Below are positions 3,447 through 55,689 of a stretch of DNA of 64,000 bases, one piece after another; positions within the stretch are counted from its first letter, which is position 1; each line of letters opens with the position of its first letter. This DNA comes from Rhizobiales bacterium NRL2 (GTDB taxonomy: Bacteria > Pseudomonadota > Alphaproteobacteria > Minwuiales > Minwuiaceae), in the NCBI GenBank assembly GCA_001664005.1, contig CP016093.1:2239001-2303000 (forward strand), read 5' to 3'. Made by a program: the position numbers and the translations under genes. The notes beneath the pieces were generated by a model, which worked only from the letters and a program-made list of their open reading frames with translations, was not told the DNA's origin and searched no databases.

Positions 3447-4325
3447 TCAGTACTGAACCCGCCGTTCGATGTAGCGGAACTGGACCACCGTCAGCGCGAT
3501 GACGACGACCATCAGCACCACGGACTGCGCCGCCGAACCGCCCAGATCGAGGCCGACGAAGCCGTCATTGTAGACCTTGTAGACCAGGATGGAGGTCGCG
3601 CCCGCTGGGCCGCCGTCTGTGGTCGCGTGGACGATGCCGAAGGTATCGAAGAAGGCGTAGACGATGTTGACCACCAGCAGGAAGAAGGTGGTGGGCGAGA
3701 GCAGCGGGAAGATGATCGTCCAGAAGCGACGGACCGGACCCGCGCCATCGATGGCCGCCGCCTCTATCAGGCTTTTCGGAATCGCCTGCAGCCCCGCCAG
3801 AAAGAACAGGAAATTGTAGCTTATCTGCTTCCAGACGGCGGCAATGACGATCAGCGCCATGGCGTCGGTCCCGTCCTGGTAGTGGTTCCAGTCGACGCCG
3901 ACGCCCTTCAGCAGCCAGGCTAGGATGCCGATGGTGGGGTTGAACATGAAGAACCAGAGCACCCCGGCGACCGCCGGCGCCACGGCATAGGGCCAGATCA
4001 GCAAGGTCTTGTAGGCCGACGCGCCGCGGATCACCCGGTCGGCGTTGACCGCCAGCAGGAGCGAGATCGACATCGACAGCAGGGTGACGAGCGCCGAGAA
4101 GATCACCGTGATCTGGAAGGAATGAAGATAGAGCGGGTTGGCGAAAAGCTCGGCGAAGTTCTCGAGTCCGATGAACTCCGAGCGCAGGCCCCAGGCGTCT
4201 TCGCGCAGCACGCTCTGCCACAGCGCCTGGCTGGCCGGCCAGATGAAGAACACGAAGGTGATGGCGAGCTGCGGCGCGAGCAGGGCGTAGGGCAGCCAGC
4301 GGTGCTTGAAGATCGCGCGTTTCAA
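3447..4325 (-). CDS. ugpA: sn-Glycerol-3-phosphate ABC transporter permease UgpA
   Basis: Partner permease of UgpE, 292 residues with six predicted membrane segments and the EAA loop [15 protein letters not shown] near residue 190. The start [20 protein letters not shown] is the usual UgpA N-terminus: a short basic tail followed by helix 1. It is separated from upstream ugpB by 109 bases that contain a perfect 11-bp hairpin, described separately. It is followed almost immediately by ugpE. Confidence 0.92.
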
Positions 4326-40311: not shown

Positions 40312-41337
40312 CTAGGCCTGATGCGGGTCGTCGCCGAGTTTCACGACCTGCTTGCCGAAGTTCTCGCCCTTCAGCATGCCGATGAAGGCCTTCGGCGCAC
40401 TGTCGACCCCTTCGGCGACGTCGACGCGGTAGGTCAGCTTGCCTTCCTTCAGCCATCCGCCCACGTCGCGCATGAATTCAGGCTGCAGGTCGAAATGGTC
40501 GGAGATGATGAAGCCCTGCAGCTTCACCTTGTTGACCAGCAGGCTGCGGACGTTGTGGATGCCTTCGGGCTGCTTCAGATTGTACTGGCTGATCATCCCG
40601 CACAGCGCGATGCGGGAGAACGGGTTGAGTCGCGTCAGCACGGCGTCGAGCATCCGCCCGCCGACATTCTCGAAATAGATGTCGATCCCCTCGGGGCAGT
40701 GCTGTTTCAGTGCATCTTCCAGGCTGTCGACGGTCTTGTAGTTGAAGCAGGCGTCGAAGCCGCAGCCTTCCACGCACCACTTGCACTTGGCGTCGTCGCC
40801 CGCCGAGCCGACGACGCGGCAGCCCTTGAGCTTCGCGATCTGTCCCACGACCTGTCCGACGGCCCCGGAAGCGGCGGAGACATAGACGGTCTCGCCGGCC
40901 TTCGGCTCGCCGATCTTCAGCAGGCCGTACCAGGCGGTGAAGCCCGGCATGCCGAGGATGCCGAGGAAATAGGGCAGGGGCGCCAGGGTCGGGTCGATCC
41001 GCACGATCCCCGCGCCGCCCGGCACGGCGGTGTGGGTTTCCCAGTTCAGCATGCCGGTCACGATCTGGCCGGCCTCGAACTTCGGATTGCGGCTTTCGAC
41101 GACCTCGCCCACCGCGCCGCACTGCATGACCCTGCCCAGCGCGAAACCGGCCGTGTAGGACTTCTCGTCGTTCATCCGCCCGCGCATGTAGGGATCGACG
41201 GACATGTAGATGTTGCGTACCAGCACGTCGCCATCGCCGAGTTCGGGCACCGGCGCGTCTTCGACGCGGAAGCAATCCTCGCTCACCCAGCCCTCGGGCC
41301 GCTTCTCGAAGATCACGCGGCGATTCGTGATGGTCAT
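40312..41337 (-). CDS. NADP-dependent oxidoreductase (zinc-independent MDR family)
   Basis: A medium-chain reductase of 341 residues in the leukotriene B4 dehydrogenase/CurA-like group. These enzymes reduce the double bond of alpha,beta-unsaturated carbonyls with NADPH. SVDPYMRGRMND near the N-terminus and the nucleotide motif VSAASGAVGQVVGQIAKLKGCRVVGSAG are seen; no zinc ligands are visible. The ATG at 41337 starts the family sequence MTITNRRVIFEKRPEGW, and the open frame beyond is spurious. It is the last of three minus-strand genes. Confidence 0.9.
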   Translation of the reverse strand: MTITNRRVIFEKRPEGWVSEDCFRVEDAPVPELGDGDVLVRNIYMSVDPYMRGRMNDEKSYTAGFALGRVMQCGAVGEVVESRNPKFEAGQIVTGMLNWETHTAVPGGAGIVRIDPTLAPLPYFLGILGMPGFTAWYGLLKIGEPKAGETVYVSAASGAVGQVVGQIAKLKGCRVVGSAGDDAKCKWCVEGCGFDACFNYKTVDSLEDALKQHCPEGIDIYFENVGGRMLDAVLTRLNPFSRIALCGMISQYNLKQPEGIHNVRSLLVNKVKLQGFIISDHFDLQPEFMRDVGGWLKEGKLTYRVDVAEGVDSAPKAFIGMLKGENFGKQVVKLGDDPHQA

Positions 41338-51573: not shown

Positions 51574-52092
51574 TCAGTCGCCGCCGGTGGCGGTCGCGTC
51601 TTCGTAGGGCGCGTCGCCATCCTCGTAGGCGGTATCGTCGAACAGGGCTTGGAATTCGTCCACAGCCGCGCCCATGGATTCCTTGAAATCCGACCAGGCG
51701 TTGGCGCTCCAGCCGTCGTTGTGTTCGACCTTGGCCTCATCGAGGCGGTCGGCGATGTCCGCGCGGATGGAGCGCATCTCGGCGACACGCTGTTCCTTCA
51801 TGGGCTCGTCGGATTCCGACCAGAGATCGATCCGGCGGTCCATCGCCCTCAGCAGATCCTCGCCTGCGCTGACGGCCGGCTCCAGCTTCTCGCCGGTATA
51901 GGCTTCGAATTCCTTCCAGGCGCTCAGCACGTCCGAGCGGGCATCCGCGAGGCCGTCTTCCGTCTTCGTCATGTCGCTCTGTTCGGCCGTCGCCTGATCG
52001 GCGGCCTTGTCATCGCCGGCCTGGACGGCCAGGGGCATCGCCAGCATGGCGGCGATACAGGTCGTGGTGAGGAGATTGCGATTCCTGTTCAT
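51574..52092 (-). CDS. Acidic exported protein of unknown function
   Basis: A 172-residue protein with a Sec signal peptide of about 25 residues (MNRNRNLLTTTCIAAMLAMP ending VQA). The mature part is rich in Asp, Glu and Ala. It looks largely helical: WKEFEAYTGEKLEPAVSAGE, then a run of heptad-like Arg/Ile/Glu segments. It ends in an acidic tail. No domain is recognised. AAGGGGAAACAAG precedes the ATG. It lies alone between the dnaB upstream region and an SDR gene on the same strand. Confidence 0.75.
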   Translation of the reverse strand: MNRNRNLLTTTCIAAMLAMPLAVQAGDDKAADQATAEQSDMTKTEDGLADARSDVLSAWKEFEAYTGEKLEPAVSAGEDLLRAMDRRIDLWSESDEPMKEQRVAEMRSIRADIADRLDEAKVEHNDGWSANAWSDFKESMGAAVDEFQALFDDTAYEDGDAPYEDATATGGD

Positions 52093-53020: not shown

Positions 53021-53470
53021 CTACAGGTCCAGTCGAAGGCGGGGCAGTGTGCGGCCCGGAATCGAGGCCGAGGGGGACTCGCTGACCAGTCTTGCGCCCA
53101 TGCGTTCATAGAACGGCCGGGCGTTGGGATCGGAATCGATGTAGAGGCAGTGGGCGCCGGCACGCCGCGCCTCGACGGCGATGGCGCGGAAAAGCACACC
53201 GCCCAGACCGGTGCCGATGCGTTCGGGTGTGACGAACATGTTCCACAGCCCCAGGGCGTCCGTGTCCGGTTCCAGCCCCGCCATGGCGACCAGCCGGCCG
53301 CCGTCCTCGACCACCAGCATCGTCCGTTCGGCGATCTGACCGGGGGTCACCGTCAGTTCGTCGCGGCAGGCATCCATGAAGGTGGCATCATAGCCCCAGT
53401 GGACCTTGGAGCGCAGGGCGAGCTCCGTCAGTGCGGCGGAGTCTGCGGCTACGGCACGGCGAATCTGCAC
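53021..53470 (-). CDS. GNAT family N-acetyltransferase
   Basis: A 149-residue acetyl-CoA-dependent acyltransferase. VQIRRAVAADSAALTELALRS is the usual first strand and helix. NMFVTPERIGTGLGGVLFRAI contains the acetyl-CoA motif A, although the normal Q/RxxGxG/A is replaced by RIGTGLG. YIDSDPNARPFYERMGARLV is motif B. GTG 53470 is chosen because the family sequence begins there; no ATG is suitable. The frame stays open to 53548, but only by reading through a strong terminator hairpin. Substrate unknown. Confidence 0.8.
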   Translation of the reverse strand: MQIRRAVAADSAALTELALRSKVHWGYDATFMDACRDELTVTPGQIAERTMLVVEDGGRLVAMAGLEPDTDALGLWNMFVTPERIGTGLGGVLFRAIAVEARRAGAHCLYIDSDPNARPFYERMGARLVSESPSASIPGRTLPRLRLDL

Positions 53471-53483
53471 CGTTCTGTCCCCG

Positions 53484-53519
53484 AAAAGAAAAAAGGCGGG
53501 TCCAACGAATGGACCCGCC
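53484..53519 (-). terminator. Strong intrinsic terminator, minus strand
   Basis: A perfect 10-bp stem, 53495-53504 with 53510-53519, has a five-base loop. On the minus strand TTTTTTCTTTT (53494-53484) follows. It stops transcription entering from the LysR gene or from the candidate small RNA. It ends only 13 bases before the GTG of the GNAT gene, which runs in the same direction. Confidence 0.92.
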
Positions 53520-53613
53520 GAGTCTAACAGGGAGGCTTCACGTCTCAAGAGACGTCGGACAATCCGACAGGGAGGCGCCGGATCGCCCGTCGATGCTGCG
53601 ATGCAACATCCAT
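53484..53613 (-). ncRNA. Candidate small regulatory RNA with two CCTCCC motifs
   Basis: About 130 bases on the minus strand, with ends estimated from the promoter and terminator. A hairpin of eight pairs at 53610-53592 opens the RNA. Next, CGATCCG/CGGATTG (53585-53579 with 53566-53560) closes a 12-base loop containing CCTCCC. The ten bases GCCTCCCTGT occur twice exactly, at 53576-53567 and 53536-53527. Between them lies the hairpin ACGTCT/AGACGT. The RNA ends at the strong terminator. A -10 box CTACAT (53626-53621) lies about eight bases before the proposed 5' end, with a weak TTTATT -35 at 16 bases. No reading frame is evident. It resembles the alphaproteobacterial alpha-r14-type small RNAs with anti-Shine-Dalgarno loops; membership is not proven. 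Confidence 0.55.
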
Positions 53614-53762
53614 GCGCGAGATGTAGGTCGTCGGTGTGGTGAAATAAAGTGGTACAGTCGAAATTCAGCTATGCAAATGTCGCAGAGCTATAACGTACTG
53701 AAAAAGCACAACTTCCGTTTACGTAAACTGGTTTGTTGAAAAATGTTGCGGTTCTGCCACGC

Positions 53763-54653
53763 TCAGAACTGGGTGTCCGAGACCTGCTGGATGAGGAAAT
53801 CCCGGAACACCGCGATTCGCTTCGAGTTCCGGAGTTCCTCCGGATAGACGAAGTAGGTGTCGAAGCTCGGGCCCGCGATGTCGTCGAGCACGCGTACCGC
53901 CTTGCTGTGGCCCTGGACGATGTAGTCGGGCAGGGCGGCGATGCCGAGGCCGCTTTCGACGGCCAGCAGCAGGCCGTAGACATTGTTGACCGTCAGCACC
54001 GGCCGGCGCGGCCGGTTGGGGTTGGCGCCCAGTTCCATCACCCAGTTGCTGGTCGGCACCGGAGTGACCGTTTCCGCGCCGTAGATGATCAGGGCATGCT
54101 TGTCGAGGTCTTCCGGCGTCTTCGGTGTGCCGCGCCGCTTGATGTAGTCGGGCGAGGCGTAAAGGTGGAAGTTCATCGAGTTCATCTTGCGCTGGATCAG
54201 GTCCGGCTGGGTCGGCGGCCGGAGCTTGATGGCGATATCGGCCTCGCGCATCGTCAGGTCGACTTCCCCGTCGGTCAGCACGAGATGGACCGAGATGTCT
54301 GGGTAGGCCTCGATGAACGCGCGGATGCGCGGCGTCAGCCAGGTCGAGCCAAGGCCGACGGTGGTCGAGACCGTCAGGTCGCCGCGCGGCTTCTCCTTGG
54401 CGTCCGTCAGCATGGCCTCGGCCATGGCCAGCTTGGAGAATACTTCGCGGGCGGTCTTGTAGAGCAGTTCGCCCTGTTCGGTGAGGATGAGGCCGCGGGC
54501 GTGTCGGCGGAACAGCGTCGTCCGAAGGCTCTCCTCCAGGGCGCTTACCTGCCGGCTGACCGCCGACTGGCTGAGGTTCAATAGTTCACCCGCATGGGTG
54601 AAGCTTCCGGCGTCCGCGACCGTGTGAAAAATGCGCAACTTGTCCCAATCCAT
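53763..54653 (-). CDS. LysR family transcriptional regulator
   Basis: A 296-residue LTTR. The N-terminal winged helix-turn-helix reads MDWDKLRIFHTVADAGSFTHAGELLNLSQSAVSRQVSALE. The effector-binding domain runs from about 90 to 290. The ATG at 54653 matches the family start; the frame upstream overlaps trxB. It lies 73 bases after trxB on the same strand. This pairing is conserved in alphaproteobacteria. A redox-related target is possible, but no direct evidence is visible. No cysteine pair like that of OxyR is seen. Confidence 0.9.
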   Translation of the reverse strand: MDWDKLRIFHTVADAGSFTHAGELLNLSQSAVSRQVSALEESLRTTLFRRHARGLILTEQGELLYKTAREVFSKLAMAEAMLTDAKEKPRGDLTVSTTVGLGSTWLTPRIRAFIEAYPDISVHLVLTDGEVDLTMREADIAIKLRPPTQPDLIQRKMNSMNFHLYASPDYIKRRGTPKTPEDLDKHALIIYGAETVTPVPTSNWVMELGANPNRPRRPVLTVNNVYGLLLAVESGLGIAALPDYIVQGHSKAVRVLDDIAGPSFDTYFVYPEELRNSKRIAVFRDFLIQQVSDTQF

Positions 54654-54726: not shown

Positions 54727-55689
54727 CTACTCCGCGGCCTGGGGCAATTCGGCGGCGGCGGCGAACTTTTCGGCCTCCAGCGCCGCCATGCAGCCGGTGC
54801 CCGCGGCCGTGACGGCCTGGCGGTAGATCTTGTCCTGGACGTCGCCCGAGGCGAAGACGCCGGGCACGTTGGTGGCCGTCGAATCGGGCGCGGTGAGGAG
54901 GTAGCCTTCGTGGTCCATGTCGACCTGGCCACTGAACAGCTCGGTGTTCGGGTTGTGCCCGATAGCGACGAAGACGCCGTGCACCGGAATCTCCCGGGTC
55001 TCGCCGCTGGTCGCGTGACGGATGCGCACCCCGGTGACGCCCAGCGGATCCTCGTCGCCGAGAACCTCGTCCAGCACGTGATCCCAGACCACCTCGATCT
55101 TTTCATGCTTGAGCACACGCTGCTGCAGGATGTGCTCGGCACGCAGCGAATCCCGGCGATGGATGAGCCAGACCTTCGAGGCGAAGTGGGTCAGGAACAG
55201 CGCTTCCTCGGCCGCGGTGTTGCCGCCGCCGATGACGCAGACTTCCTTGCCGCGGTAGAAGAAGCCGTCGCAGGTGGCGCAGGCCGAGACTCCGAAGCCC
55301 TGGAACTTCTGCTCGCTGGGCAGGCCGAGCCACTTGGCCGAGGCGCCGGTGGAGATGATCACGGTCTCGCCGACATAGGTGTTGCCGCCATCGCCCTTCG
55401 CCACGAAGGGCCGCTTCGAAAGATCGATTTCCGCGACGATGTCGTGGACGATGCGGGTGCCGACATTGGCCGCCTGCTTTTCCATCTGCTCCATGAGCCA
55501 CGGGCCCTGGATGACGTCGGCGAATCCCGGGTAGTTCTCGACGTCGGTGGTGATGGTGAGCTGACCGCCCGGCTGGATGCCGTGCACCATGACCGGCTGG
55601 AGGCCCGCGCGCGCGGCGTAGATCGCCGCCGTGCACCCGGCCGGACCCGACCCGATGATCAGAACCTTGGTCTCAATCGTTTCGGCCAT
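54727..55689 (-). CDS. trxB: Thioredoxin reductase
   Basis: FAD/NADPH enzyme that keeps thioredoxin reduced. It has 320 residues. The FAD motif is IIGSGPAGCTAAIYAARAG (11-29). The redox pair C137/C140 lies in CATCDGFFY. The NADPH motif is VIGGGNTAAEEA, and the C-terminal FAD contact is GVFASGDVQDKIYRQAVTAAGTGCMAA. Start ATG 55689. It diverges from the PLP decarboxylase gene across 106 bases and is followed by the LysR gene. Confidence 0.97.
   Translation of the reverse strand: MAETIETKVLIIGSGPAGCTAAIYAARAGLQPVMVHGIQPGGQLTITTDVENYPGFADVIQGPWLMEQMEKQAANVGTRIVHDIVAEIDLSKRPFVAKGDGGNTYVGETVIISTGASAKWLGLPSEQKFQGFGVSACATCDGFFYRGKEVCVIGGGNTAAEEALFLTHFASKVWLIHRRDSLRAEHILQQRVLKHEKIEVVWDHVLDEVLGDEDPLGVTGVRIRHATSGETREIPVHGVFVAIGHNPNTELFSGQVDMDHEGYLLTAPDSTATNVPGVFASGDVQDKIYRQAVTAAGTGCMAALEAEKFAAAAELPQAAE

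Follow-up and report, generated by a model that had tools for sequence, protein, structure and literature searches.

Judged from its sequence, the minus-strand segment 53613-53484 of the window (the whole 64-kb stretch of DNA that was analysed) is a compact, structured, and conserved small RNA (sRNA) gene with two anti-Shine-Dalgarno (aSD) motifs. It most probably encodes a VtlR-activated, Hfq-dependent sRNA that blocks the translation of uptake-system mRNAs, which would make it a widespread, uncatalogued relative of SorY with an AbcR1-like action. The features of the locus are as follows.

53484-53613, minus: small RNA gene (folding z-score; covariance model R1, 65.8 bits over 53488-53560; sister-species conservation)
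53592-53610, minus: 5′ hairpin of 8 bp, GATGTTGC-ATC-GCAGCATC (fold)
53556-53589, minus: hairpin 2 with the loop CCUCCC, aSD1 (fold)
53567-53576, minus: first copy of GCCTCCCTGT, aSD1 (motif search; sister-species alignment)
53540-53555, minus: hairpin 3 of 6 bp, ACGUCU-CUUG-AGACGU (fold and covariation)
53527-53536, minus: second copy of GCCTCCCTGT, aSD2, single-stranded (alignment; predicted target seed)
53489-53519, minus: intrinsic terminator GGCGGGTCCA-TTCGT-TGGACCCGCC-TTTTTT (sequence and covariation)
53621-53626, minus: -10-like element CTACAT (sequence)
53667-53689, minus: LysR-type operator dyad AGCTCTGC-N7-GCATAGCT (T-N11-A; 7 of 8 arm positions complementary)
53662-53674, minus: VtlR/LsrB box GCAT-N3-TG-N3-T, perfect match GCATAGCTGAATT (sequence versus published box)
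53763-54653, minus: LysR-type regulator, VtlR/LsrB-like, P0001 (Pfam HTH_1 and LysR_substrate; trxB-LysR-sRNA order)
54727-55689, minus: trxB, thioredoxin-disulfide reductase (TIGR01292, 402 bits, cut-off 343)
53021-53468, minus: GNAT acetyltransferase gene (Pfam Acetyltransf_1)

Sequence elements and predicted fold

The 5′ end at 53613 is an unmapped position inferred from the spacing to the -10 element, and the predicted length of the RNA is ~125-130 nt. The folding z-score was -6.6, and none of 200 shuffled sequences was equally stable. GCCTCCCTGT occurs twice, 40 bases apart, and nowhere else in the 64 kb, against an expectation of 0.18; two copies appeared in none of 100 shuffles, which bears out the view of an earlier note on this DNA that the duplication is unlikely by chance. 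Both window motifs read GCCUCCCUGU. Most of the architecture described there was also recovered: the -10 box CTACAT (53626-53621), the 8-bp hairpin (53610-53592), the second exact copy of GCCTCCCTGT (53536-53527) with another hairpin (ACGUCU-CUUG-AGACGU), and the perfect intrinsic terminator (53519-53489). The exception is the 7-bp hairpin described with CCTCCC in a 12-base loop; in the best fold, hairpin 2 has a 14-pair stem (G-U pairs included) and a 6-base loop that is exactly CCUCCC. Hairpins with a CCTCCC loop are found at the same place in several relatives. Between hairpin 3 and the terminator lies the single-stranded GAAGCCUCCCUGUUAGACU, and aSD2 is situated within the single-stranded stretch CCUCCCUGUUNGACU.

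Conservation and covariation

Identity to the window RNA is 77-79% in four Minwuia sister species, compared with 20-34% directly past the T tract and 32-43% in the upstream spacer. Among the 101 related loci compared, the intergenic stretch after the LysR gene shows a recurring GATGTTGC-N-GCAAYATC, often a CCTCCC-loop hairpin, and then the near-invariant ACGTCTCCCAGACGTGAAGCCTCCCTGTTnnACTy with a terminator. A version of the 5′ hairpin with at least six pairs and compensating changes was found at 31 loci.

A covariance model of the 3′ part of the RNA (R1, 68 positions) was built from 14 LysR-adjacent sequences. R1 scored 65.8 bits on the window RNA and had matches at 77 places across 99 loci. 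All 14 pairs of the R1 alignment have changes on both sides, and 97.9% of the cells are paired, compared with 77.6% after shuffling and 18-46% when the partner was slid. In the model-based alignment, both-side changes were seen in 6/6 pairs of hairpin 3 (95% of cells paired) and in 8/8 pairs of the terminator stem (99.8% paired), and the CCTCCCT of aSD2 did not vary across 43 aligned sequences. RNAalifold found no structure in the raw MAFFT alignment because the variable terminators were misaligned, a problem that the model-based alignment solved. The earlier note had held that loss of the stems and of both motif copies in relatives would speak against the RNA; the stems covary, and both copies of GCCTCCCTGT are unchanged in the four sister species. 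Its central proposal of a small RNA gene with two aSD motifs is thus upheld for a conserved and structured RNA.

The minus strand of the RNA gene does contain two open frames, each 22-23 codons long, and the statement that the unit holds no reading frame is correct only in that neither frame is conserved. These frames could be taken to encode a small protein. This is highly improbable: indels between the sister species shift the frames but leave the stems intact, there is neither a consistent start nor a consistent ribosome site, and the compensatory base-pair changes are strong.

Distribution in Alphaproteobacteria

An R1 match is present in 192 of 385 sampled alphaproteobacterial genomes, or 138 of 276 genera. 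Of the 97 genomes with a strong match, 78 carry the RNA on the strand of the LysR gene and 145-613 bp downstream of it, and 12 more carry it within 7 kb; in the other 7 it lies far from that gene (R1 positions versus LysR search), a point against the VtlR-based explanation. The best-scoring matches may lean towards LysR-linked loci owing to the LysR-adjacent training set. In seven genomes (G041, G169, G266, G045, G172, G269, and G345), a gap of 0.9-5.6 kb replaces the direct adjacency of the RNA and the LysR gene; genes have therefore been inserted or moved between them. The window genome, a single contig of 4.7 Mb, has a single copy. A second R1 match in the window (41039-41073, 17.7 bits) looks like chance and was rejected. 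Tandem second or third copies downstream of the LysR gene were observed at loci L005, L006, and L014 (about 3829-4159), L008 (3654-3984), and L091 (2568-2843). Their 5′ hairpins differ, and the CCTCCCTGTTAGACT-terminator 3′ part is the same. The third copy in Sneathiella chungangensis (L006) scored 50.4 bits, above the Rfam cut-off of SorX.

Neighboring genes

In 86 of 97 testable related loci, trxB directly precedes the LysR gene, and the order trxB-LysR-sRNA in the window agrees with the VtlR/LsrB synteny (PMC7486931, PMC8844928). The window LysR thus matches in synteny the trxB-linked VtlR/LsrB-type regulators. VtlR/LsrB is a LysR regulator of Agrobacterium and Sinorhizobium, encoded after trxB in Agrobacterium; together with its Brucella orthologue, it activates the AbcR sRNAs via GCAT-N3-TG-N3-T (PMC7486931, PMC8844928). 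The window protein is 83-85% identical to the LysR of Minwuia records (Minwuiales), and a close solved relative is available in the PDB (9hh1, E 7.7e-93, for 53763-54653, minus), which could help to work out how this stress-sensing regulator perceives its signal.

The setting between a LysR and a GNAT gene, which the earlier note had named, is informative on one side only: the LysR is of the type that activates AbcR1 in rhizobia, and the GNAT gene is irrelevant. The latter is present in just 3 of 101 related loci and is therefore a chance neighbor outside the module. The end of the terminator, ~20 nt before the GNAT start, might point to a 5′ leader or attenuator of that gene. We give this reading almost no credence, as the RNA is conserved while GNAT is not, and in the sister species the identity falls to 20-34% right past the T tract. 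Further along the window, a 172-residue protein with a signal-peptide-like start (51574-52092, minus) has no Pfam or NCBIfam match.

Predicted promoter and regulator site

At the place of the -10-like element, relatives have CTAAAT, CTAAGT, or CTATAT. The operator dyad AGCTCTGC-N7-GCATAGCT precedes the RNA in most related loci. Given the assumed start at 53613, the box GCATAGCTGAATT extends from -61 to -49, the same spacing as in PabcR1 of S. meliloti, whose VtlR/LsrB box is at -61 to -49 (PMC7486931, PMC8844928). The four Minwuia sister species have only a degenerate dyad without the strict GCAT-N3-TG-N3-T box, and regulation may differ in them.

These elements bear on whether the RNA has its own promoter. 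It lies on the lysR strand, 150 nt downstream, with no terminator-like site detected between the two, and SorX, its top Rfam match (32.3 bits), is cut out of a 3′ UTR by RNase E (PMC6238624). The RNA could accordingly be derived from the 3′ UTR of the LysR transcript by SorX-like processing without a promoter of its own, or be the mere terminator region of that transcript. We regard this as unlikely. The VtlR box and the -10 element stand directly before the RNA at the published spacing, the 5′ hairpin begins just past the conserved -10 in many relatives, and SorY and AbcR1, found in the same slot, are transcribed from promoters of their own (PMC6238624, PMC8844928).

Comparison with known RNA families

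At the Rfam gathering scores, the whole window contained tRNAs alone and no family for the sRNA, and the loci of relatives contained nothing but one SorX match in a downstream extra copy. Below the thresholds, the window RNA was matched by SorX, suhB, and SorY. In sequence, its nearest known relatives are SorY and SorX; in locus and proposed mode of action, the nearest is AbcR1.

The earlier note had considered membership in the suhB and CcsR/Cuckoo groups, and neither is supported. The suhB/mmgR model (RF00519) gave 30.7 bits, below its cut-off of 41. Both RNAs have CUCCCU before the terminator hairpin; suhB/mmgR has one motif only, whereas the window RNA has two. The suhB/mmgR family shares Rfam clan CL00108 with ar15. 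CcsR/Cuckoo RNAs expose CCUCC motifs as the window RNA does, but no model of this type matched the sRNA region of the window at E values up to 10. Whereas CcsR is a four-copy array whose homologous members, CcsR1-4, are co-transcribed with ccaF1 (PMC8307010), the window genome has a single copy, with trxB, lysR, and GNAT as its neighbors.

SorX of R. sphaeroides (RF02784) gave the best Rfam score (32.3 bits, E 3.7e-6), below the cut-off of 46.6, and shares the CCUCCCUGUU-GAC-terminator 3′ part with the window RNA. It acts on a spermidine transporter (PMC5036791) and derives from an OmpR-like gene, whose 3′ UTR is processed by RNase E (PMC6238624). As to SorY (RSs1543, RF02651), the window RNA scored 27.0 bits against a cut-off of 111. 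A CCUCCCUGUU-N-GACU seed directly before the terminator is common to both; the extra 5′ hairpin and the second seed, located in a hairpin loop, are found in the window RNA and not in SorY. SorY acts on the mRNA of takP, a malate transporter, and binds Hfq (PMC5036791, PMC8307010, PMC6238624). Among 100 Rhodobacteraceae genomes, the SorY model exceeded its cut-off in one, at contig position 1632645 (L277, G439:C4:1632645; 115 bits). The published 5′ end of SorY in R. sphaeroides is 1,632,642 (PMC6238624), and the match is therefore almost certainly R. sphaeroides SorY itself. There, a LysR homologue (48% identical) on the same strand ends ~200 nt upstream of sorY, with a dyad AGGTATGC-N7-GCATGGCG in between, and a VtlR-type LysR is found in front of 11 of the 12 best SorY loci. 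Like the window RNA, SorY thus sits directly downstream of a VtlR-type LysR gene with an ATGC-N7-GCAT dyad. The common CCUCCCUGUU-N-GACU-terminator part supports shared descent of SorY and the window RNA. SorY has been reported to depend on RpoHI/RpoHII and not on VtlR, which counts against an explanation based on VtlR.

AbcR1 and AbcR2 (alpha-r15) of Sinorhizobium, Agrobacterium, and Brucella resemble the window RNA in other respects. They occupy the trxB-vtlR/lsrB slot (Agrobacterium and Sinorhizobium), with the VtlR box and spacing as in the window. Like the window RNA, AbcR carries a pair of aSD motifs, of which one occupies the loop of an upstream hairpin and the other lies between hairpins, and periplasmic solute-binding proteins are numerous among its targets (PMC8844928, PMC5461406). 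The motifs of AbcR are M1 CUCCCA and M2 GUUCCC, compared with two CCUCCCUGU in the window RNA, and AbcR forms a tandem pair compared with the single gene in the window. Neither the window region (E up to 10) nor the whole genome yielded a match to the AbcR model (ar15, RF02345). A weak R1 match at AbcR loci of Roseibium covered the terminator alone and was not counted as homology. In Pleomorphomonas, a sequence right behind this LysR gene (L077:3705-3839) exceeds the Rfam cut-off of AbcR (ar15), so the AbcR slot reaches past the studied rhizobia. Locus and architecture alone suggest descent shared with AbcR; no sequence homology was found. By gene order and predicted operator, one and the same locus accommodates all three RNAs, SorY, AbcR1, and that of the window. 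No paper in the literature searched named SorY and AbcR1 together.

Predicted targets

The aSD2 motif (CCUCCCUGU) is the exact complement of the Shine-Dalgarno sequence ACAGGGAGG, and targets were predicted by searching for this pattern 3-10 bases before ATG. The window genome has 18 such sites, and the reversed control pattern has none. By Pfam, 7 of the 18 genes encode periplasmic solute-binding proteins (one SBP_bac_5, three DctP, two NMT1_3, and one Peripla_BP_6), and most of the others look like catabolic enzymes by eye. The seven solute-binding-protein genes lie at genome positions 134778, 210655, 1734611, 1752931, 3215518, 3923367, and 4460555. Among the control genes with the GGGAGG core, the share was 1/73 (Fisher p 2.8e-5); controls that lacked a signal-peptide-like start were assigned by eye, and the set includes some doubtful reading frames. 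The proportions elsewhere were 4/11 in a sister species and 3/9 in another family; three of the four solute-binding-protein genes of the sister species are homologous to targets in the window genome.

The test pattern was the complement of the RNA seed itself, and the control GGGAGG leaders were predicted to pair, on average, only a few kcal/mol more weakly. The bias might then reflect a Shine-Dalgarno preference of genes for exported proteins, with the real targets of the RNA lying elsewhere. There is a small chance that this is so. The controls with the same GGGAGG core had only one case in 73, so the extra ACA is what matters, and the bias recurs in the two other RNA-carrying genomes. The predicted target classes are those of AbcR1 (amino-acid solute-binding proteins) and SorY (malate transporter), which supports an AbcR/SorY-like action. 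An Hfq gene is present in the window genome.

Proposed mechanism

Here, we propose a mechanism that starts from what can be read in the DNA, namely the gene, its structure, its linkage, the box, and the target bias. VtlR would bind the ATGC-N7-GCAT dyad ~55 bases before the start of a free-standing sRNA gene. We infer that the bound regulator activates transcription of an RNA of ~125-130 nt ending at the intrinsic terminator. The two exposed CCUCCC seeds, aSD1 in its loop and the single-stranded aSD2, would then pair with Shine-Dalgarno sequences of the ACAGGGAGG type with the help of Hfq. Such pairing would keep the mRNAs of periplasmic solute-binding proteins (those of TRAP, TAXI, peptide, and branched-chain amino-acid systems) and of some catabolic enzymes from being translated, and nutrient uptake would be turned down while the regulator is active.

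Biological implications

Both AbcR1 and SorY have been well studied, but separately: the former in the context of symbiosis and virulence in rhizobia and Brucella, the latter in that of photo-oxidative stress in Rhodobacter. The present comparison unites them with an RNA that has no Rfam family and is found in about half of the sampled alphaproteobacteria, at one locus beside one redox-linked regulator. A VtlR-activated aSD sRNA that silences nutrient-uptake mRNAs may be an ancient core circuit of the Alphaproteobacteria, of which AbcR1 in rhizobia, SorY in Rhodobacteraceae, and the uncatalogued family elsewhere would be lineage versions; we consider the case for and against this broader view to be evenly balanced. 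If it is true, SorY would be an unrecognized member of the VtlR regulon, and the family would be far larger than Rfam shows. The prediction is that VtlR controls both SorY and the window RNA and that AbcR1, SorY, and the window RNA all turn down uptake systems. R1 provides a ready model for annotating the RNA across the class. What emerges is a unification, testable in laboratory strains, more than a novel type of system.
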